From contig LDOQ01000320.1 of the NCBI GenBank assembly GCA_001887945.1, positions 92,713 through 156,712 of the forward strand: DNA of 64,000 bases. Reading direction: 5' to 3'. Positions 21,045-62,592 of the stretch are shown piece after piece. Origin of the DNA: Spraguea lophii. Lineage: Eukaryota; Microsporidia; Spragueidae. The number at the start of each line of letters is the position of its first letter. Position 1 is the stretch's first letter. The position numbers and the translations under genes were made by a program. The notes beneath the pieces are model-generated. The model had not been told where the DNA came from. It saw only the letters and a program-made list of their open reading frames with translations, and searched no databases.

Positions 21045-21455
21045 TTCCTAATAATATATTTCTTTGCTCCCGTCCCAGCCTTTTACCATCTATATTAACT
21101 AGTTTTGTTATTCTATACATCAATCCAACTCCATCTTATGCTCATAATCGTTAGAATTTTGTTGCGATGAAATATCATTCTAACGGTCCTAATGGGATTT
21201 GTATCCCTTTGACATAATATTGATCAAATCACTAAACAATAGAACAGTTGTAACTACATCAAATAATCATTATTTTAATCTGGTAATGGATTATTATACA
21301 ATATATAATCAAATCACTTATTAAATCTTCAACCGTTCAATACACTTTTTTTATTTTTTTTATTTTAAATATTTTTTTCGAGTGAATAATTTTAACCTGT
21401 CAAATCTAAGATTTGGTTATTACCATATACCAATTGAGTCAGGTAGGTTTAATAA
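21045..21455 (-). mobile_element. tRNA-derived SINE, old copy H
   Basis: This is a degraded full-length copy on the minus strand. Its tRNA-like head is near 21380-21455 (plus-strand text taagatttggttattaccatat aligns with the head of better copies). The body aligns at tatattaactagttttgttattct and tcttatgctcataatcgttag. It sits directly upstream of RTF1. Boundaries are approximate. Confidence 0.55.
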
Positions 21456-26419: not shown

Positions 26420-26748
26420 TGTGTTTGGTGGTTATAATGTTTTATAAAATCCTAAAGTTGATATGTTTGAATTCTTGACGTGGAAAATTTATAAGAGAAA
26501 ACAAATAAAAATGGATGAAGAAAAAATTTATTGAGTGATAAATTGGTAATTATATGTCTTGTATGATACTTTTAATGTTAAATTAATATAGGGATTAGAT
26601 TGGTAAAATTATTGTCTCGTTATTGAAGTGTGTTTGAGTAATACAATCTCAAAAAGAATTTATAATCTGACTAATATGAGATGGAACATAATAATGTACA
26701 TTATACACGAATATATAACAATATAAAGTATAACTATTATGATATTAA
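26420..26748 (+). mobile_element. tRNA-derived SINE, old copy J, 5' part
   Basis: The plus strand aligns with the family from the tRNA-like head (tatgtttgaattcttgacgtgg stands where other copies have the B box) through cttgtatgat and ctgactaatatgagatgg. The match stops where the Tc1 element begins and appears to resume after it at 28079. The copy is strongly decayed; the call rests on order and spacing of short matches. Confidence 0.45.
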
Positions 26749-28078
26749 TATATAGGGTTTTTCGATCAAATTCGTACGATTTTTCAATCAAATTCGTACG
26801 GTGTCAAAACAATCAAAAATACTTTAAAAAGAATGGAACTTTTTTCAATCAATTTCGCACGGTTTTTCGATCAAATTCGTACGGCCTTAATGAATGAAAA
26901 AAAATACAAAAAAATTGAAGTTGAGACAAGAGAACAAATCCTTTTTTTACACAATAAAGGTATGTCTTATAACAAAATAGGTGAGAAACTGGGATTGGCT
27001 AAATTTACTGCCCAATCTATTATTCAAAAGTTTAATAATAAAAGTGTTTTATCGGTTGAAAAAAGAGGCGGGATAAAAGGTCTAAACTTGGTGATGTCGA
27101 AAGGACATTTATATCTGAGCTTGTTGATGGCAACCCAATAATCACTCTTAAAAAAATAACAGAGAAGGTGAATGAAAGGTTTTTAATATCAGTTTCAACA
27201 TCTACGATTTTCCGAAACCTAAAAAACTTACATTTCTCGTTAAAATCATTAACCATTGTTCCAGTGAATCGAAACACTGCCACAACAATTGAAAAACGTA
27301 GAGAATACGAAGAAAAATCCACACGGTTATCGTATGAAAATTCATCAGAATCATTCGTATTTATAGATGAGGTAGGATTTTCTCTCGCAACTAGAGTTAA
27401 ACGTGGCAGAGCAATTATTGGCCAATCTGCATATGTAGAGGTTGGAGGTGTAAGATCAAAAAGTTACAATTTTATAGCGGCTGTAAATAAGAATACGGTA
27501 ATACATTATAAAAATAATATTAATAATGTAAATGGTATTGATTTTAAAGAATTTTTAAGGGATTTGCATACTATTACTGTTACTAAAGGAATTAATAATC
27601 CAATATATGTTCTTGACAACGCCAGAATACATCATTATAGTGGTGTTATCGATTTAATCTCAGAACTTAATCTTTCGATTTTGTATCTTCCACCATATTC
27701 TCCATTTTTAAATATAATAGAGAATTGTTTTAATAAATGCAAGAACATTATTGGAAGAATGGTGATAAACACACGAGATGAACTTTTTAATCATATTGAT
27801 GAGAGTTTTAATTGTATAACACCTAATGATCTAGCGGGATTTTTTAGGAAAATGTTGAGATATTTACTAAGGTGTAGGAACAATGAAATTATACTTGAAT
27901 AAATTATTTATTCTATTAACGTGTTTTTTTACATATATACTATCTTATAAACTACATTTCTTTTAATATAATTTATGATTTTCAAACCGTACGAAATTGG
28001 TTGAAAAAAGTTCCATTCCTTTTAAAGTATTTTTGATTGTTTTGACATCGTACGAATTTGATTGAAAACCCCTATATA
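26749..28078 (+). mobile_element. Tc1-type DNA transposon with long terminal inverted repeats
   Basis: The element is about 1.3 kb, bounded by TA-rich ends consistent with TA target duplication (tatataggg ... ccctatata). Inverted repeats of about 90-110 bp share gtcaaaacaatcaaaaatac and ggaacttttttcaa. The 22-bp word ttttcRatcaaattcgtacg occurs four times at the left end (26758, 26780, 26842, 26863) but only twice at the right end. These are likely transposase-binding repeats, with extra copies on the left. It contains one frameshifted transposase. Confidence 0.88.
26890..27902 (+). pseudogene. Tc1 transposase (DD34E), single frameshift
   Basis: The first frame (from ATG 26890) encodes the helix-turn-helix DNA-binding region: TREQILFLHNKGMSYNKIG and GLAKFTAQSIIQKF. 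At about 27084 one base appears to be missing, and the reading continues in the next frame as GDVERTFISELVDGNPIITL. Catalytic residues follow: Asp in VFIDEVGF, Asp in VLDNARIHH and Glu in NIIENCF, with 34 residues between the last two. The rest of the protein is undamaged, so the break is recent or could be a sequencing error in a homopolymer-poor spot. Confidence 0.85.
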
Positions 28079-28185
28079 TAGATGGTTAAGTTAATTAATA
28101 CAAGTTATTTGTGTTTTAAAGAACTAATTGTTTTACATCATAGTGATTGCAACTACTCTGAGAATTTTAACCCGAATTAAAGTGT
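28079..28185 (+). mobile_element. tRNA-derived SINE, old copy J, 3' part
   Basis: Directly after the Tc1 element the text ttaattaatacaagtt aligns with the family's cagttagtacaagttt, and the following 80 bases align loosely with the 3' end of copy D. This supports the Tc1 having inserted into an existing SINE. Confidence 0.4.
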
Positions 28186-29344: not shown

Positions 29345-29590
29345 TAAAATATTTGATTCGAACCAGTGAAAGTTTATATTATATATAGTTTATTTGTAAG
29401 ATTATGTTAAAAAAATTAAGAAATTATATGAAAAAGAATTAGTAATGTGTATAATACTTAGAATTATAATATTTGATAACATAATTTAAGATATCATTAA
29501 TATATTCATTATAATATTCATCAAATATAACAAATCATAAGTTATGACTGATTGAAAATTTCTATAAATAAAAGTTTCATTATATGTAAG
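29345..29590 (+). mobile_element. tRNA-derived SINE, internally deleted copy G
   Basis: The 3' end (29530-29585) matches other copies well: atttctataaataaaagtttcatt is the family's terminal word. A B-box-like gattcgaacc lies at about 29358. The distance between them is about half that of complete copies, so a central part seems deleted. Confidence 0.6.
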
Positions 29591-29761
29591 GTTAGAAAAT
29601 AAAAATATAATTGGAAGAAGTAATAAAAATGAATCTTAAATAAATTTTCTTATGTTAAAATAATCATATCATTATAAAAACGGAATAATCCATAAACAAT
29701 CCATAGATTAATTTAAAATAAGTTATAAACAATAATTTATTTATCTTAAAATATATTTTGT

Positions 29762-31754: not shown

Positions 31755-33231
31755 GGGTAAAGGACAACTCGTCTGGAAAAATAAACTTTTTAATAATTTA
31801 ATTTTTATTGAAATCCCATTCATATGTATCCACCATTCCTGATAAAAAGTTTTCATTTGTTAGCATAATGTAATTTTCATTTAGAATTTTTATTTTTTTA
31901 TCTTTTTTCAATTGAAAATAAGAAACATCTATTTTTCCTCCAAAATATTGATCTAAAGAAAAGCTATTAAGATTTTCCTCTTCTAATATCTTTGTTATAA
32001 AAAATGCAATGTTGGGATGTATCACAGTCATATTGGCCTTTATGACCCTATGCCATGCCTCAACATTGTTTATTGTTCTTGGAATATTATTTTTGGTTCT
32101 TTCAAATGTATTCCAGAAACCAATATTATACTTAGGTTCATTGTATTTATCTTCAATTATTTTCCCAACATATGTTGCTTCAAAATATTCGAAAAAATCA
32201 TTTATTTTTTCTATTTTACATATATTTTCCAATATATTTTTAATTTGTAAATAATTTTTCAATACATGTTCTTCCTTTAAAAATGCTAAAAAAAATAACT
32301 TTTTTATTTCTTCATTAAATGTTTTATTATTCTTATATAATGAAGCCAAATCTAGCTGTTGGAGTCTTCTATATAGAGATTGTATTAAATGGAAATAACA
32401 ACCATGATAGTTTGATTGTGTAAATGTCTTTTTAATTGAATTGAATAATCCCAATTCGAAATCTGTTATGATATATTCCGGTTCCAATTTTGCAATTTCT
32501 TTACATTTATTAAAAACTTTATAATAACTTGACTCACTTTTGTCTTTCATAATGATATAAATATAAGGAACTGCTTTACCAAAAATATAACAATGTATTG
32601 TTAATATTTGATAATATTTTAATGGTGCTATTTTAAAAGTTCCATCAATAAGTATTATTTTTGGATTTATGATTTTTTGTTTTTTATTCTCTGACATTAA
32701 AATTATAAATCTTTTTTCATCTTCGTAACCACTATCATATCTTAAAAATAAATTGCCTTTAGAATCTTTTTTAAGGCTTTCAGGTATATCATCAATTGGT
32801 CTTTCCTCGAATCCATATACTTTATTTCTTACTCTTCCTATTTGTTTAACCATGGATGAAAGTTTTGGGAACTCCCGTGGAATTATACTATCATTGTTTA
32901 AAATTTCATCTGATATGATCGATTTTGGTTGCTCTCTACTTGTAGCTGCCTTTTCTTTAATTGTATTTAATGTTAAAATTCGGTTAATTTCTACTGACAT
33001 ATTATGTGTCATATTATGTTCGACCTGATTATTAATAATACCATCATTATCTGTGAAAATGGCACCTTTACATGGTCGGTTTTTACACCTCCATCTTGTA
33101 TTTCCATTTTTTAATGAATCTTCATTGTATAGATTATTGTTATAAATAATCATTTCTTTGCCTCTTTGGCTTTTTGTAGTTTTATAATTTTTTTCCATGG
33201 GTAAAAAATCCAGACGAGTTGTCCGCAAGCC
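31755..33231 (-). mobile_element. Intact MULE-type DNA transposon
   Basis: The 1477-bp element has short inverted ends sharing ggacaactcgtctgga (about 31762-31777 and 33207-33223 on opposite strands). It contains one uninterrupted transposase and is framed exactly by the 79-bp direct repeats. Perfect flanks and an open transposase suggest a recent insertion. Confidence 0.88.
31798..33198 (-). CDS. MULE transposase with FLYWCH-type zinc finger
   Basis: The product is 466 residues from the ATG at 33198. The N-terminus has a FLYWCH-like finger (TRWRCKNRPCKGAIF ... VEHNMTHN, Cys-Cys-His-His). The MULE catalytic domain follows: Asp in ILIDGTFKIAP, Asp in IITDFELGLFNSIKKT, the CYFH motif of the C2H2 subdomain, and Glu in NNVEAWHRVIK. 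An ATG at 33291 would start outside the element, so it is rejected. ACCC directly before ATG 33198 mimics the host start signal and lies next to the terminal repeat. Confidence 0.9.
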   Translation of the reverse strand: MEKNYKTTKSQRGKEMIIYNNNLYNEDSLKNGNTRWRCKNRPCKGAIFTDNDGIINNQVEHNMTHNMSVEINRILTLNTIKEKAATSREQPKSIISDEILNNDSIIPREFPKLSSMVKQIGRVRNKVYGFEERPIDDIPESLKKDSKGNLFLRYDSGYEDEKRFIILMSENKKQKIINPKIILIDGTFKIAPLKYYQILTIHCYIFGKAVPYIYIIMKDKSESSYYKVFNKCKEIAKLEPEYIITDFELGLFNSIKKTFTQSNYHGCYFHLIQSLYRRLQQLDLASLYKNNKTFNEEIKKLFFLAFLKEEHVLKNYLQIKNILENICKIEKINDFFEYFEATYVGKIIEDKYNEPKYNIGFWNTFERTKNNIPRTINNVEAWHRVIKANMTVIHPNIAFFITKILEEENLNSFSLDQYFGGKIDVSYFQLKKDKKIKILNENYIMLTNENFLSGMVDTYEWDFNKN

Positions 33232-33310
33232 GTTATTTTTATTTCTATATGAATTATACAATATTTTTATATTTAAATTCATATAATACATATATCCTTT
33301 ATCTTTATTT
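33232..33310 (+). repeat. 79-bp direct repeat, right copy
   Basis: It is identical to 31676-31754 and begins immediately after the right MULE terminus. Confidence 0.95.
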
Positions 33311-33951: not shown

Positions 33952-35596
33952 AAAATAAAATATTATTTTTATGAGAAAAATTTAGATTATTATTTTATTT
34001 ATTTTTATTATATGATATTTGTTATATGATATTAGTTTATAGGATATTGGTTATAGGATATTTATTATAAGATATTGGTTATAAAATTATTATAAAATTA
34101 TTATAAAATTATTAGAAAGAGATGTCTTTAAATCTTTTTTAATACAAAAATAAAATTTAAAAGATTTTATTAAATGATGATAACATTGGTGTAATATTGT
34201 CTATTTGTATTTTTATTGTTTCCAGATGGAAGAGAAAGTTTCTTTCCCCTATATTACTAGAATCTTGTTATTATTCTCTGTTTATAATAAAAATCATATA
34301 CACTAGGAGATAGAAGCTCTTTTACAATTTAAAACATCTTTTGAGATAATCACTCAGTTAAAACAATCATGATTTAGGACTCTCATCTTCAGATGGTTAG
34401 AATATTTTTTAGATTGATTTCATGAAAAGGTTTTTAATATGTAAATTTATCAATAAAATACTGTTGAAAGAGGCTAAAATCCCAAGGAGTCATGAAAATT
34501 CTATATTGTATAATATAAATAAAATGTAAGATTTTGATAACCTAAATAAAATAATAGAGATATATACATAATAAGATCATACAAATATAATTTAAATGGT
34601 TATAAAAATAGCAAAATCTACGATAAATATTATTTTATTCCGATCCTTTATTTTTTATTTCTTATTATTACATTATTATCGATGCCACTTTAATTATAAT
34701 CAAAACATTTCAACAAATTATTATCATTATGTTCGGAGATCATTAATTTTCTAAATAATATATTTATCTATATTATTTTAATTATTAATTCCACGATTAT
34801 TCTTTATATTTGAAAATAAGATATAATTTTAAAGATAAAATTTCTTATACTAAATTATTTGGTATAAATCATTTACATCAAATACCTTTTTTTAAATCAA
34901 TGATAATAAAATATAATTTACTGTATTTTCTCTGTATAATAATATCATTCTATGAATATTTTTTAAAAATATTAAAAATATATATTAATTTTTATTTAAG
35001 ATATAAACTTTAATTTTGATTGAGGTTTAAATCAAATGATATAAATCATATAAAACATTGATATAATATAAAATAATCATTGTATTATTTTAATATTAAA
35101 ATATATTTATATTTAATCTTTTATTGTATTTATGAGGATAATACTAAATCAATATTAATTAATAAATGTTATATAATAATACATAAGCTTAACAACATAA
35201 TAAATATTTAATTATAAGTGTTATATAATAATATTTATTAAATAAAGATATTTTATATTCTTTATTATTTTCTTTCTTGGATCAAGGGAATTTCATTTCT
35301 ATAATATTTCTTTCTTTTTTAAAATTATTGAATTTTATTGTTTTCATAAACATAATAGATTGAATATTATAATTATAGAATATATATTTTTATTTAAAAT
35401 ATTCTGTTTATCTATTGAATTTCGAAGAATAAAATAAATTATTTTAAAAATCGAGTTAAAAAAGAATAAAAATTTTATTTATTAAAATATCCAATAAATA
35501 TTTGTTATCCTACTTTTATTTTATAATACTTTTTTTGAAATAATATTTTATTCTTTACGATAATTTTTTAAAAAAATATTATTTTTTTAGCCCATA
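33952..35596. repeat. Long gene-poor spacer with a minisatellite
   Basis: At about 34010-34115 a degenerate 14-17-bp unit (ggatattggttata, with tgatatttgttata variants) is repeated, ending in three copies of aaattattat. The rest of this 1.6-kb stretch shows only A/T filler. A non-ATG frame at 34810-35013 is discounted. Confidence 0.55.
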
Positions 35597-38100: not shown

Positions 38101-38276
38101 ATATCAGATTATGCATATAAAATTAAAATTTATAATATAATAGGTTATTATTCTTTCTATTATAAGTTTTATATTAATATTTCATAGTAATAATATTTTA
38201 TAGTAATATTTATATTTATTTAAATTTAATTATAATATCAATATTATATAAGAATAATGCATTTTTCATTTTTTTA

Positions 38277-38735
38277 ATAAAATTTTTATTTATAGAAGTT
38301 TTCTAATCGATTATGTTTACGACTCTTGGTTCTTAACACCCATTTAAATTTGTATTAATTGGTTTCACTGCAGATATCTATTAACACTATTTTACCTTAT
38401 GTTCGAGAGCGTTAGGATTTTGTGTGTGATGCACGACACCTTTCTTTCCTAGTTTTTTAGAGATTCTCACACTTTTTCTTGTCATAATAATACTGATTTA
38501 TAAATCAATACAAGGATTGCAATTGCAATAATTATATATCGTTTTAATCTAGTAGCTGGCGTCGTACAAAAAAAAATAATTAATGCTACGCTATCGAACC
38601 CACATCCACTCAACGATCTTTCTTTTCTCTCCTGCTTTTTATTCTTTTTTGAAAATTCTTCTGGGCAAGGGATTCGAACCCACCGAGCTCAGGGTTTAGT
38701 TACCATCCCACGACCATTGGACCAATCGGGTTAAA
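38277..38735 (-). mobile_element. tRNA-derived SINE, copy B
   Basis: This full-length, moderately diverged copy on the minus strand aligns end to end with copy C. Its head reads ggattcgaacccaccgagct in the plus strand (B box on the minus strand) and taccatcccacgaccattgg over the A-box region. Its terminal word ttttatttatagaag is at the left end. No clear target duplication is visible. Confidence 0.8.
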
Positions 38736-40429: not shown

Positions 40430-40850
40430 TAGAGAAATTTGCTGATGTCTGATATTTAGCTCTTAAAATCATTTTAACGTGTATTTTCTAACTAATACAA
40501 TAATCATATTAATTTCATTTTTATTTTTATTCCATCTGGTAGCTATTTTCTGTATTATGTAAATGTGCGTCTCTCCTCGTTTTTATAGGATTTTTAATCT
40601 ATTTTATGTCATGGAACTGACCAAGTCATTAATAGCGTAATGATCATAAATACATCAACAAATAACCATTTTCATTTAACAATACTATAACCCTACAAAA
40701 TATAATCAAAAATATTGTTTAACGCATATTTATTTAACGCGCATTTTTCTTTCCTTTTATTTCAATTGTTTTTTACTTTTTTTGAAAATTTTTTTGAGTA
40801 AAGATTTGAAACTTTTATACTTATCAATTAATATCTCGTCATCATTGATA
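40430..40850 (-). mobile_element. tRNA-derived SINE, old copy I
   Basis: This is a heavily decayed minus-strand copy. The head region (tttttgagtaaagatttgaaac, about 40790-40812) aligns with ttctggatgagggattcgaac of the young copy, and the body aligns at tatgtcatggaactgaccaag. The left boundary is uncertain. Confidence 0.45.
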
Positions 40851-43511: not shown

Positions 43512-43526
43512 CTGTATTTCTTTCGC
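43512..43526 (+). repeat. Target-site duplication of SINE copy C, left
   Basis: The 15 bases ctgtatttctttcgc are repeated exactly at 44024-44038, flanking the SINE. Confidence 0.92.
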
Positions 43527-44023
43527 TTTTTTTTTTTTTTACGAATGAAACTTTTATTTATCAAAGCTTCCTGGCCGGTTGCGGCCTACCATGGTCTGAG
43601 ACCTTCGGTTCCTCGAGCGACATTAAACTTGTACTAACTGGTTTCACTACAGATATGCATTAATCTCATCTTACCTTATGCTCCAGAGTGTTAGGATTTT
43701 GCGTATGGTGCGCGTCGCCGCCCCCACTTCCAGCTCTTAAGGAATTCCCAGCCTCTTTCGTTGCATAGTATTGGCCGAGTCACAAATCAATACAGGGATT
43801 GCAACTACATCAGCTAAACACTACTTTAATCTAGTAGCGGGGCCGTCATACAAGGCACAGCTATGCTGCGCTATCGAAACCTCACCCACTCAACAACCTT
43901 TTTCTTCTCTTCTGCATTTATTATTATTTTTTTTTTGTTTTGAAAATTTTTTCTGGATGAGGGATTCGAACCCGCCAGGCTTGGGGTTTGATTACCACCC
44001 CACGACCACTGGGCCAGGCGGGA
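43527..44023 (-). mobile_element. tRNA-derived SINE, young full-length copy C
   Basis: This is the reference copy, 497 bp on the minus strand. From its 5' end at 44023 it has an exact A box (TGGCCCAGTGG) and, about 33 bases on, an exact B box (GGTTCGAATCC), the internal RNA polymerase III promoter. A 350-bp body follows that is richer in G+C than the surroundings, then the terminal word gataaataaaagtttcatt and a homopolymer tail of about 14 A on the minus strand. It is bounded by a 15-bp target duplication. Frames inside it (for example 43771-44061) are not genes. Confidence 0.93.
43968..44013 (-). promoter_or_regulatory. Internal RNA polymerase III promoter of the SINE
   Basis: On the minus strand the A box lies near 44015-44005 and the B box near 43973-43963 (positions to within a few bases). 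The sequence resembles a tRNA head, but the acceptor stem does not pair, so it is not a functional tRNA gene. Confidence 0.75.
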
Positions 44024-44038
44024 CTGTATTTCTTTCGC
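44024..44038 (+). repeat. Target-site duplication of SINE copy C, right
   Basis: It is identical to 43512-43526. Removing the SINE and one copy restores only a 33-codon hydrophobic frame, so no clear gene was broken. Confidence 0.92.
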
Positions 44039-44845
44039 ACATGATGTTTACTCTTCATTAATATTACATAAATATTCTCATTTAGTCAATTTTATCTTCT
44101 TTTAATTTTATTGTTAGGTTATTCTAAATCAACAACTTTGGTTAATGTTATTTTCCTAGTTTTGATGGTTGGTGCAATACAATACCATTACAAAAATATT
44201 TGAAAATTCATATTTCTTTTACGTATTCTCTAATAATAGGTAAATGAAAGTTTTTTTATCCTCTAGTTAAAAAATATAAAATATTTCTTTCTTCCACATC
44301 AAAATAATTATCTTTGGATATTTTTAATAAATCCGGGTATTGGAATATTTAATTATTTTATCTTTAAAATTTAAGATTTTTGTTTTCTCTTAGATTCACT
44401 TGATTTAATTGTTTTATTTTGTATATATGCAATTATCTTATATTATAAGTTTAACTTTTTCTAAGTTTATTTTAAATCTAATTACAAAAGTTGATTTCTT
44501 AGTAATAAATGAGTAAAAGATTTTCTTATCCTCCAAAAATAAAAAATAAAAATGTCATGATTTCTACGTTATTTTATAAATTTATTATCGAAATATATTG
44601 TATTTTCTATAGTATTAGATTATTTAAAGAAGTAATATTAACTTTAACAATCTTTTCATTATTATTCTTTATTATATAAAAATATGTATTATTTAATAAT
44701 AAAGTTACATAAGAATAAATATATTTCATAGAAATATGCAATAATAAAATATAACTGATTAATTAATAAATTATAACGAATTACATAATTATTTATTTTT
44801 ATGCATTAATAAATTTTTATAAAATAATTTCTATCCTTCTATTTT
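44039..44845. other. A+T-rich spacer
   Basis: No gene, RNA or repeat was recognised. Confidence 0.4.
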
Positions 44846-47559: not shown

Positions 47560-48420
47560 ATCTCGTGCCAAATGTAGGTTCTATGAAAAATACAAATTGT
47601 AAAAATGTAAATGTGAGATGAAATTAATTGAGAACGACCATTAAGAGGATTTATATGGCAATGTAATATATATAAATATAAGAGTATAATCCGTTTAATA
47701 TAGTATTAAAATGTTTTTCGTAGTATTAAAATAACATTGTTTAAATTGGTTGAGATATTATTTGAATTGATATAAAATAAATTCCTTAAAGAAATAAAAC
47801 GGGAGATTCGTATTGGTTTAATGAAATTAAAAATGTATTAAAAAGTAAAAAAAATATCTTAAATAAATTTTCCTATGTTAAAAAAATGTAGTAAATAGTA
47901 TATCTTAAAAAACAAAAAATTTATAATAATTATATAGGAGATAATTATAAATGAATAGAACTCAATTAGGTTGTTATATCAAAGCATCAATATAATATCG
48001 GAAAATCAAATAAAGATAATAAAAAATATTTTTTAAAGTTACAATATAGAAAAATAAAAAAAATATAATAAAAAAGCATACAAATATTATGATAGATTAT
48101 TAGAAAAGTTTTAAAAATCTGGTATGCTAAATACGGATGGTTTTAAAACCAACCATTCTAGAAATTTTATTTTACCACAAAACAACTTTATTCATATATA
48201 AATAATAAAATATAATTGAAAATATGTTAAAAACATTTAAATAAAAGAAGACCTAAATCCCTGTATAAAAAATTATATATCGATATTTTTTCAAGAGAGA
48301 ATAATTTTAATTTTTATAAAACGCTATTATGAGGTATAGCTCCAATTAGATTGACCTGAAAATAAAAAATAAAATGTTCGTATACCAACAAATGATTATT
48401 CAAAAATTTATGAATTATAA
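47560..48420 (+). mobile_element. Fourth Merlin-type transposase relic (N-terminal part clearest)
   Basis: About 47612-47690 reads CEMKLIENDH and, one frame on, RGFIWQCN then KYKSIIR. This is the zinc-ribbon start (C..C..EMKLI....GFIWRC....) of IS1595/Merlin transposases. About 47735-47765 continues as LFKLVEILFELI, like the following helical block. Beyond 47900 only scattered hints remain (TDGFKT near 48135). Multiple stops and shifts. The right boundary is a guess. Confidence 0.5.
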
Positions 48421-50946: not shown

Positions 50947-52164
50947 CTAAAAAATATCATCATCATCAATTTCTTCATAGTCACTTCCATATTCATCATT
51001 ATTAATTTTATATTTTAATATACCACCAACACCACCGAATCCTTCTTTAAACTGCATTCCTTCTGAACTTTTGTCTGATACAAAAAATAATGTAACATTG
51101 AAAGATTTATAATTTTCAGCTATCCAATCTGTGAATAATATTTTATCTTCCGGTGTATTATCATCGTTTAAATTATATTCAGATGGGTCTATTTCAGTCT
51201 CTAAAGTTTCATCAACTATTAGAATATCTACAGATCCATTTTGTAAATTTTCTATTGTAGATTTAAGACTAAATGTATATTTACCATCATCTGCAATTTC
51301 TTTAAAAAATTGTTGTAATATTTTTTTTTCTTTGCTGTATTTGTTATTTAACAAAACTTCGGCAGAAAGCTCAATAGCTTGATTAAGACCATTAGATCCT
51401 CCATAATTTGTATCTATTAATCTTAAAACCTTTGATTTTATCGATGCTTTTAAAACATCTGAATTTTTTAATTCTGTTTTAAAGTCAGCAGACCCAGCAA
51501 AAATATATCCATCAATATCATCTTCAAAAATATTATTAATATTTTCAGCTACTTTCTTGATGTACCAATTTCTTTTTTCAACTCTTAATCTTGCAAATCT
51601 AACAGATGATTGTCCTCCTCTTCCGTGTTTCTTTGGAAGATCTACTGAAAGATTATAAAGAATTGTTTTAATATTTCCAGAGAGAGTAGCAAATAATGCA
51701 CCGTGTCCATCTATTATAACAAACCCGTATTTGGATGTTTGTTCAAATAAAGATAAAAATCCTTCTACATGAAACTTTGAATCACAAAGATACAAAGAAT
51801 AATTTATAGGTTTTATAGGCTCTAAGGCAAGTGAAATTTTCTTTTCCTTGTTATTCAATTTATCCATGGCCAATCCTACAAAAATACCAATACCGTTTGG
51901 TGGAAGTTTATCTATTGTTTTTAATTTATGCTGAGCAGATGTAATAGCAGAAAGCACACTTAATCGATTGACTCTTGATTTTATATTTGATGCTGTAGAA
52001 TATTCATCAGTCAACATTCTTGTATACCTATTGAGTTGATCACCCGGTGGAATGATAAGAGATATCATACTTGTACCATTTCCAGCAGCGTCACGTAGAG
52101 ATTTTAATAATTTACGCATTTTCCATAATTCAACATCTGAAAGAGAAGATTCATTTATAGCCAT
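50947..52164 (-). CDS. SUP45: Eukaryotic peptide chain release factor 1 (eRF1)
   Basis: It recognises all three stop codons and triggers peptide release. The product is 405 residues (yeast 437). Domain 1 has TASNIKS at 57-63 and YLCDSKF at 125-131, the stop-codon reading motifs. Domain 2 has GRGGQ at 181-185, the catalytic GGQ loop, followed by SSVRFARLR. Domain 3 binds eRF3 and ends in an acidic tail. CCCTTTA precedes the ATG. It is divergent from DRG1 with 83 bp between starts, a probable shared promoter. A decayed copy lies at 59503-60667. Confidence 0.97.
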   Translation of the reverse strand: MAINESSLSDVELWKMRKLLKSLRDAAGNGTSMISLIIPPGDQLNRYTRMLTDEYSTASNIKSRVNRLSVLSAITSAQHKLKTIDKLPPNGIGIFVGLAMDKLNNKEKKISLALEPIKPINYSLYLCDSKFHVEGFLSLFEQTSKYGFVIIDGHGALFATLSGNIKTILYNLSVDLPKKHGRGGQSSVRFARLRVEKRNWYIKKVAENINNIFEDDIDGYIFAGSADFKTELKNSDVLKASIKSKVLRLIDTNYGGSNGLNQAIELSAEVLLNNKYSKEKKILQQFFKEIADDGKYTFSLKSTIENLQNGSVDILIVDETLETEIDPSEYNLNDDNTPEDKILFTDWIAENYKSFNVTLFFVSDKSSEGMQFKEGFGGVGGILKYKINNDEYGSDYEEIDDDDIF

Positions 52165-53714: not shown

Positions 53715-54170
53715 AAGCCTGCTTATAACTGAATGGTTGTGGGATAATAACCAAATTTCAAGCATGGTGAATTCAAATCCCACACATAGAAAAAATGTTA
53801 AAAATAGATAGAAGATACAGGGAAAGTTATTAAACGAGGTAGATTCGATTGTGTAACTTAATTATACTTTGTATGACGCTCTACCATGGGATTCTCTGTG
53901 TTTGATTGGCGTTGTTGCAATTTCTATATTAATTTGTGATTCTACCAATACATATCAAGAAAAAGATTAGGAATCTTGTTAATAATGATAAAATGATGAG
54001 TACCATCTGTGAAATTTTAATTATCTGAAACATAAGATAAGATGAGATTTATACCATCTTTAATGCAACCAAACAATACAAGTTTAAATATGCTTTAAGA
54101 ACCAGAGAACATAACCACAATAGGATGAGTCAGTTGGAAACTTCTATAAATAAAAGTTTTATTAAAAAAT
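53715..54170 (+). mobile_element. tRNA-derived SINE, copy D
   Basis: A full-length, moderately decayed plus-strand copy. Its head reads gaatggttgtgggataataa, then a weakened B box (gtgaattcaaatccc). The terminal word ttctataaataaaagtttta is near 54137-54157. It shares its position relative to DRG1 with copy F, so it was present before the tandem duplication. Confidence 0.78.
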
Positions 54171-58751: not shown

Positions 58752-59205
58752 ATTCACTTGGTCCGATGGTCGTGGGATGGTAACTAAATCCCAAACATAA
58801 CAGATTCAAATTCCTCATACCAAAGAATTTTCAAAATAAAACAATAAATATATAAGAAAAAGGAAGAAAGATCGTTAAGGTGAGAGTTCTATAACATAGA
58901 ATTAATTGTGCTTTACACAATAGCCCCCACTCAATTAAAATAATGTTTAACTGGTATAATTAAAATCTTTGTATTGATTTGTGATCCAGTCAATATTATG
59001 CAATAACGATGCGGAAATTTCATTAATTATAATAGCACGATAATTGAACCATATGCGAAATTTTAAACATCTGGATCATAAATTAAGAGAAGGTTGATGT
59101 ATATACACAAACACCATGTAATACAAGTTTAAACGAGAAACCAAATATAATAGACCATAACCAGCTAGAAAACTTATATAAATAAAAGTTTCATTAAAAA
59201 ATACC
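58752..59205 (+). mobile_element. tRNA-derived SINE, copy E (at duplication junction)
   Basis: A full-length plus-strand copy with a good head (cttggtccgatggtcgtggg) and a weakened B box (cagattcaaattcc). The terminal word tataaataaaagtttcatt is near 59180-59198. It ends about 20 bp before the point where similarity to 50660 onward begins. Confidence 0.8.
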
Positions 59206-62127: not shown

Positions 62128-62592
62128 AAGAATCAACGGTCCATTTAATCGAGTGGATGTAGGATAATAACCAAATCTCAAGCATAGTGAATGCAAACCC
62201 CACCGTAGAAATATTAAAAAAATTGATAGAAAATAGGAGAAAGCATTGGAGAGACGAGAATTCGACAGTATAACTTGAATGTGTTTTACATAACGTTCTC
62301 TTATCAGATAACGTAGTATTTAACTGTTGTTATTACAATCGTTCATTGTTTTACGAGTTGGCCGATAATTATATCAAGAAAGAGATTAGAAATCTTACTA
62401 ATAATAATGAAACGATGATTGCATCACATGCAAAATTTTAATTATCTGAAGCATAAGACAAGATGTGATTCTTACTATCTGTCGTGTAATCAGTTAATAC
62501 GAGTTTAAACATGCCTTATGAACATAAGTACATAAAGCATTATAGGATGAGTCAGTTAGGAAATTTCTACGAATAAAACTTTTACTAAAAAA
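62128..62592 (+). mobile_element. tRNA-derived SINE, copy F (twin of copy D)
   Basis: It occupies the position equivalent to copy D in the duplicated block and shares copy D's private changes (for example gtaggataataaccaaat in the head and gatgagtcagtta before the 3' end), so it was copied by duplication rather than inserted separately. Confidence 0.78.

Follow-up and report, generated by a model that had tools for sequence, protein, structure and literature searches.

Whether the repeat at 43527–44023 is a tRNA-headed SINE of a microsporidian genome, and which LINE would mobilize such an element, are the questions raised by this locus. The window, i.e., the whole 64-kb stretch of DNA that was analyzed (C67:92713-156712), belongs to a genome of 5,273,041 bp on 73 contigs and contains at this position its youngest copy of the repeat. 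This full-length copy lies on the minus strand, an orientation that was not given in the original prediction; in this direction, it starts with TCCCGCCTGGCCCAGTGG and ends with GATAAATAAAAGTTTCATTCGT followed by an A-run, and it is 99.4% identical to the family consensus (aligned at 43536–44021). It consists of a tRNA-like head, in which both the A box and the B box are perfect, a body of ~320 bp, a tail of ~90 bp, and a 14-nt A-tail at 43527–43540.

The original prediction counted about ten related segments in the window, ranging from nearly intact to barely visible. Nine of the ten were found in three search iterations with a SINE profile of 23 copies, of which six came from the window. The copies other than the youngest lie on the minus strand at 1–462 (90.2% identical to the consensus, tail cut off by the window edge), 21091–21443 (73.6%), 38271–38729 (78.1%), and 40508–40812 (72.2%), and on the plus strand at 26447–26754 (68%), 53731–54165 (74.1%), 58755–59196 (76.2%, tail word intact), and 62149–62588 (71.1%). 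Before their inclusion, the profile found 21092–21440 (E 8.5e-32) and 40544–40810 (E 2.1e-8), and one iteration later, likewise before inclusion, 26447–26753 (E 6.9e-6), while five dinucleotide-preserving shuffles of the window gave no match at E ≤ 10 in any of the three iterations. A blastn search with one young copy matched the window at 1–461, 21093–21378, 38262–38730, 43527–44023, 53734–54169, 58759–59201, and 62209–62592, with three additional short matches of 46–58 columns. The tenth segment, 29345–29590, has only the tail word (29564–29581, plus strand) and no recognizable SINE body: its local score was 30, versus a median of 27 and a 95% point of 35 in 200 shuffles. Together, the nine copies cover 3,680 bp, or 5.75% of the window, a share that may differ from that in the genome as a whole. 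The predicted range of ages was also borne out, as identity to the consensus falls from 99.4% (43536–44021) through 90.2% (1–462) to 68–78% for the seven others, which indicates that transposition of the family has probably gone on over a long period.

The copy at 26447–26754 had been described as one of two parts of a split segment (26420–28185), and this is indeed the case, since a DDE_3 transposase (27168–27902) lies between inverted repeats, recognized by eye, within the old SINE copy, the 3' part of which seems (by eye) to restart at about 28110. The intervening element, at 26752–28112 with its ends placed by eye, is of the Tc1/mariner type and has inverted repeats with CGTACGAATTTGAT. 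Elsewhere in the window, an open reading frame on the minus strand (31798–33291) encodes MULE transposase and FLYWCH zinc-finger domains.

Genome-wide, the best 40 of 454 first-look candidates were scored and gave 40 matches at 97–100% identity, the query included, and 4 further ones at 74–83%. The same 3' terminal word, claimed earlier for the window copies, recurs throughout the genome: at up to one mismatch, ATAAATAAAAGTTTCATT occurs 327 times versus 4 times for the reversed word used as a control. Within the loci examined, 13 of 17 distinct tail words (at most two mismatches) sit on a SINE body; the other four (window 29564 and 35482, L033:9099, and L064:1698) do not. Three old copies retain the word exactly (window 59178, L033:7868, and L043:1392). 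At the opposite end, the head begins at TCCCGYYTGGCC in the 13 young copies examined with their flanking sequence. All 13 gave 5'/3' flank-match scores (8–16) above the 95% point of 7 in a null of 156 cross-paired flanks of different copies (mean 3.3, maximum 10); nine of them exceeded the null maximum, and the lowest score (8, at L008) reflects an A-rich imperfect match. In the youngest window copy, both direct reading and the flank test reveal a 15-bp target-site duplication, ctgtatttctttcgc on the plus strand, with its 3' copy at 43512–43526 and its 5' copy at 44024–44038. Nine older or decayed SINE copies, one of them cut at the window edge, showed no clear target duplication. The repeats are thus dispersed, short, non-coding copies with common ends and target duplications of the retrotransposition type. 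These features, together with A and B boxes of the Pol III type, the A-tail, and the wide range of ages, support their assignment as a SINE. The original prediction had itself named a larger element, or the lack of shared boundaries and duplications, as an outcome that would speak against a SINE; the ends proved to be common to the copies, and each of the 13 flank scores lay above the null 95% point. Sharp common ends, unrelated flanks, target duplications, an A-tail, and consensus ends that are not inverted repeats of each other all speak against pieces of some larger element and against a non-autonomous DNA transposon (MITE), a reading in favor of which nothing was found and which we regard as highly improbable.

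The A and B boxes of the head stand, by reading, in tRNA register at consensus positions 8–18 and 52–62. In the youngest window copy, they correspond to TGGCCCAGTGG at 44006–44016 and GGTTCGAATCC at 43962–43972 (both minus strand), identified with what we take to be the A-box and B-box consensus motifs. We compared the head with 45 of the organism's own tRNAs (of 57 matches listed; 12 were left out), which gave scores of 16.5 for Ser(GCT) and 16.0 for both Ser(AGA) and Arg(TCG), whereas the best reverse-complement comparison reached 4.25 and the highest-scoring of 300 shuffled heads 14.5. Because shuffling destroys the boxes, this likeness may be due to nothing more than the two boxes, and none of the 45 tRNAs compared can be singled out as the parent. 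ARAGORN and Rfam (gathering score) gave no match on the whole window. The covariance-model check suggested with the original prediction did not recognize the head as a tRNA either, with no RF00005 match up to E 1 for the head of the window copy or up to E 0.1 for copies on seven loci, and a folding program prefers a non-tRNA structure for it. The consensus also contains TTTT at position 78, which could stop Pol III early, although the two own tRNAs examined with their flanks terminate in T5 and T7. The predicted tRNA head thus holds as far as the boxes and the strand-specific similarity to own tRNAs are concerned, which at the sequence level support a tRNA-like head, but the Rfam model does not accept it as a tRNA, and it is without a clear parent.

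The original prediction stated that a SINE needs a LINE partner and that none is present in the window. A LINE that qualifies as the partner, referred to here as LINE-B, is carried by other contigs, and the window itself has two truncated LINE-B 3' ends, both on the plus strand, at 29590–29660 (profile E 1.6e-5) and, more weakly, at 47844–47888 (E 9.7e-4), with no match in five shuffles in either case. A genome search with RVT_1 (PF00078) gave nine matches, among them Ty3-type elements, a telomerase gene, and LINE pieces. Contig C72 starts inside an endonuclease–reverse transcriptase reading frame of 479 aa, the Pfam matches of which fall below the cut-off; this copy of LINE-B ends at the contig end and shifts frame in places. 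The protein P0141 (1216 aa) aligns to C72 at residues 3–669 with 72–76% identity, and its residues 1008–1216 align to the LINE-B end on contig C21 with 62–68% identity, versus just 28% for the second LINE family of C21, LINE-A. Since both align to P0141, the C72 fragment and the C21 LINE-B C-terminus are parts of one element. P0141 has an RVT_1 match far above the cut-off (5.8e-40), an endonuclease match below Pfam's own cut-off (6e-4), and a CCHC-like motif, seen by eye, close to its C-terminus. It is itself an open LINE ORF2 on a 5,194-bp NCBI contig, 75% identical to the endonuclease–reverse transcriptase part on C72, i.e., a close relative of LINE-B. Among PDB sequences, the five closest to the LINE fragment are reverse transcriptases, of which four bear the name L1 ORF2, and the LINE matches are variously named LINE-1, jockey, or TX1 by their sources.

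When the genome was searched with the LINE 3' region (best 40 of 109 candidates scored), 41 matches were obtained, of which 17, on 14 contigs, are LINE-B matches; the other 24 are short (49–55 bases, 84–86% identity), and 12 of these lie within listed SINE copies. LINE-B copies are 5'-truncated and A-tailed, and no full-length LINE-B was found in the genome. Four contig ends fall inside LINE-B: the left end of C63 (C63:1), C11:1, and C27:60040 stop at one and the same base, and the right end of C63 (C63:12583) does so within a few bases of it, as expected if near-identical copies broke or collapsed the assembly. Target duplications were assessed in ten LINE copies with starts placed by eye (five LINE-B and five LINE-A; two further LINE-A items were left out). 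Flank scores exceeded the null maximum of 11 on C2 (21), C4 (14), C34 (LINE-A, 13), and C8 (12), and the six other copies scored 6–9 at a null 95% point of 8; duplications above the null maximum are thus present in three of the five LINE-B copies (C2, C4, and C8). Within an old SINE copy, a LINE-B tail of only 26 nt (L033:7810-7835) is accompanied by a repeat of 21 target bases, 19 of them identical, a hint that copying a very small part of the 3' end can suffice. With an endonuclease, a reverse transcriptase, 5' truncation, an A-tail, and target duplications, LINE-B has the features of an APE-endonuclease LINE.

Some further observations concern the surroundings of these LINEs. On C21, nested LINE ends lie beside a short TTAGG array (C21:3552-3566), and telomere-like (TTAGG)n repeats occur at C30:1-125 and C32:52740-52864; in Microsporidia sp. 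MB, LINE repeats are described, in the available part of the source, as flanking the TTAG telomeres. A telomerase reverse transcriptase gene (Telomerase_RBD and RVT_1; visibly Asn-rich) is located on the minus strand of C2 at L022:3725-7441. The LINE stretches of C72 (L025:1-3300) and C21 (L032:1-3409) have a G+C content of 43%, versus 22–24% beside them, a contrast that could stem from recent acquisition or from a difference in selection.

This contrast in G+C content, and the long branch on which the eRF1 of the window sits, would also fit repeats that derive from contaminating DNA of an animal host. On the other hand, old and young copies of the SINE lie among ordinary genes of the window, the eRF1 of which matches microsporidia, and AT-rich contigs harbor decayed copies of both the SINE and the LINEs, so that we find contamination very hard to credit. 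The eRF1 gene (50947–52164) is 54–60% identical to the named microsporidian eRF1s among the matches listed, whereas animals such as Lytechinus and Trichoplax reach 50–51%; together with the genome size of 5.27 Mb, this agrees with the microsporidian-like genome originally predicted. The top score was obtained for a rotifer protein (P0001) in which parts of eRF1 are present twice, followed by a protein at 61%. In an eRF1 tree of 28 rows, the window row joins Pseudoloma (98/96); we drew no placement from this tree because Nematocida groups with the outgroup rows and the two joined branches are both long.

The evidence that connects the SINE with LINE-B lies in their 3' ends. The initial match, between the SINE and the loci examined, paired SINE bases 368–462 with C21:1788-1882 (73%, E 1e-10). 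Between the SINE consensus and the LINE-B 3' UTR, 44 of 49 bases are identical in one block, followed by a similar terminus. In the youngest window copy, this putatively LINE-derived block, CTCGAGGAACC...CGGCCAGGA, lies at 43569–43617 (consensus 407–455) with two predicted hairpins, and the terminal word ATAAATAAAAGTTTCATT, which resembles the LINE-B terminus, at 43544–43561 (both minus strand). The local alignment of SINE and LINE-B scored 80, versus a best of 31 in 1000 shuffles, whereas head and body of the SINE scored 29 against LINE-B, within their own shuffles (99% point 33). The profiles also cross-matched. The SINE profile detects eight LINE-B copies (1.4e-10 to 4.9e-4), seven of them in positions 393–465 and the weakest at 419–484, and the LINE-B profile detects young SINE copies (4e-13 to 1e-9) and, more weakly, older ones. 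On the window, the LINE-B profile picks up the SINE tails at 43561–43626 (6.9e-14) and 14–65 (9e-9), with no match in five shuffles. Judged by sequence, the SINE thus has its 3' end in common with a LINE of the same genome.

The LINE sharing the SINE 3' end, which the original prediction proposed to look for, hence exists as far as the block is concerned, but the terminus is similar rather than identical. The SINE ends in ATAAATAAAAGTTTCATTCGT-A(n) and LINE-B in, e.g., ATAAATAAATTTTTCTTATGTT-A(n); across copies, the LINE-B end is ATAAATAAATTTTTCTTATG-A(n) or close to it and not exactly the SINE terminal word. The gap between the common block and the terminal word also differs, i.e., 104–107 nt in the three LINE-B copies measured versus 7 nt in the SINE. 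Because the last ~30 nt are similar but not identical, an unassembled or extinct sister LINE that ends exactly in ATAAATAAAAGTTTCATT could be the true partner instead of LINE-B. The four of 17 tail-like words without a SINE body, one of which (L033:9099) is preceded by an apparently decayed hairpin block, could be read in the same way. No LINE with the exact end was found, however, and the search with the LINE 3' region, among the best 40 of its 109 candidates, gave LINE-B and the 24 short matches of the SINE type. We consider a sister LINE rather unlikely.

A different question is whether the common block acts as a recognition signal. The same two hairpins are predicted in the SINE and LINE-B blocks, although equal folds add little, since the sequences are 44/49 alike, and the hairpin stretches are not exceptionally stable in either (z −0.5 to −2.35). 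In an alignment of 17 rows (8 SINE, 5 LINE-B, and 4 LINE-A), 83.3% of cells pair, versus 77.9% after shuffling (0 of 500 shuffles), and both-side changes occur in 10 cells, versus 4.0 (0 of 500), several of them from LINE-A rows of uncertain kinship. Four pairs show both-side changes, a number reached in 204 of 500 shuffles, and when the partner is slid by −1 column, the counts become 5 pairs and 11 cells; RNAalifold predicts 6 pairs from the same alignment, all in hairpin 1. A conserved two-hairpin structure in the common tail is therefore plausible as a model.

The lack of exceptional stability would fit a relaxed, L1-like recognition, with mobilization through the A-tail alone and the LINE-B-like 90 nt as a passive relic of the origin of the SINE. 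An A-run terminates both the SINE and LINE-B, and the L1 ORF2 names among the nearest PDB sequences point in this direction as well. Conversely, the block of the SINE consensus has stayed 44/49 identical to that of LINE-B, in contrast to the head and body, for which no likeness is seen, the exact tail word is retained in the three old copies, and LINEs that end in poly(A) can still be stringent, e.g., SART1, according to the available part of PMC3747384. Mobilization by the A-tail alone is thus conceivable, though in our judgment rather unlikely.

For LINE-A (L032 (C21):1-1160 and L047-L064), the genome search gave 19 matches; one is the query itself, and the remaining 18 cover no more than its last ~205 bases. 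Its 3' UTR has a similar-looking block, in which 20 of 32 positions agree with the SINE, and, of two LINE-A copies folded, that of C21 forms both hairpins and that of C47 the second one only. LINE-A was tried as a partner and kept only as a weak lead, because its local alignment with the SINE (22, 99% point 26) is within chance, as is the alignment between LINE-B and LINE-A (22, 99% point 28). Weak LINE-A-like 3' ends, detected with the loci examined, lie in the window at 34210–34409 (minus strand, E 5e-7) and 44230–44284 (plus strand, E 5e-4). The LINE-A copies of C20, C47, and C42/C16 (the latter pair with common flanks) and the LINE-B copies of C6 and C8 start exactly at the block of hairpins (TCCNNGAACC), which might mean that reverse transcription tends to halt there. 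The two-hairpin block might even be a conserved landing signal for the reverse transcriptase of microsporidian LINEs, present in at least two distantly related families, LINE-A and LINE-B, and exploited by the SINE, a speculation that we hold to be unlikely. If true, a single SINE family could rely on two or more LINEs of a 5-Mb genome and could have outlived successive partners.

Taken together, we conclude, with a probability of roughly 0.85, that the repeat is a dispersed, recently active, tRNA-headed microsporidian SINE family with a tail from LINE-B, most likely mobilized in trans by LINE-B. In the mechanism that we propose, the A and B boxes of the head would recruit RNA polymerase III, and the last ~90 nt of the transcript (the two-hairpin block, ATAAATAAAAGTTTCATT, and the A-run) would derive from the LINE-B 3' UTR. 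The LINE-B reverse transcriptase would then take the SINE RNA by this tail, LINE-B would nick the chromosomal DNA, and target-primed reverse transcription would copy the SINE, leaving duplications of ~9–16 bp, as the anatomy of the copies suggests. The tail itself was most likely captured by fusion of a SINE precursor to a truncated LINE-B 3' end.

Microsporidia are a textbook case of genome reduction, yet this genome of 5.27 Mb has 327 SINE tail words, and a LINE/SINE pair with near-identical copies persists in it. SINE insertions could mark differences between isolates, and the LINE-B/SINE pair offers a small natural setting for studying how the reverse transcriptase of a LINE selects its RNA. 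The borrowing of LINE tails by SINEs is already known; what is new here is a host phylum for which we found no described case. The only precedent found is a "SINE" class in Nosema bombycis (28,669 bp, 0.18%), a single row of a repeat table (PMC3614468), which carries the label in a microsporidian but, in the available part of the source, comes without sequence, head, tail, or partner. Such a class is not named in the available parts of PMC4202319, PMC3486916, PMC13174016, PMC7313128, PMC10133504, and PMC10245619. Subscription literature lay largely outside our search, so that the absence of a described microsporidian SINE beyond that row is not proven. The novelty supposed in the original prediction is accordingly qualified: no described case emerged, but the N. 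bombycis table lists a SINE class and non-LTR elements were already known from the phylum. Judging from the accessible parts of the respective sources, Trachipleistophora hominis and Nosema ceranae carry non-LTR elements, Anncaliia algerae has four LINE families, and in Microsporidia sp. MB LINEs, including L1 and Dong-R4, make up 24.4% of the assembly. These LINEs resemble LINE-B as non-LTR elements of the same phylum, and no SINE partner is mentioned for them there. The LINE-1 ORF2 of Cucumispora (P0159), to which the LINE-B fragment is 26% identical, belongs to the same phylum as well.

The closest known systems are the 58 SINEs with a LINE-derived 3' end tabulated by Ohshima from animals, plants, fungi, and amoebae, among them some from Entamoeba and two from ascomycetes (PMC3747384); microsporidia do not appear in the available text of that work on SINE/LINE pairs. 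As far as that text describes them, these SINEs are alike in having a Pol III-type head, a 3' end common to a LINE of the same genome (~80–100 nt in the examples), and 3' ends that form stem-loops. Unlike them, the family described here has a microsporidian host, a head that is degenerate as a tRNA, and only 7 nt between block and terminal word, where LINE-B has 104–107 nt. Among fungi, the pairs Mg-SINE/MgL of Magnaporthe and SINE2-1_BG/Tad1 of Blumeria likewise combine a tRNA promoter with a LINE tail (PMC3747384); their hosts are ascomycetes, and the likeness is drawn from their description in the available part of the table, not from their sequences.
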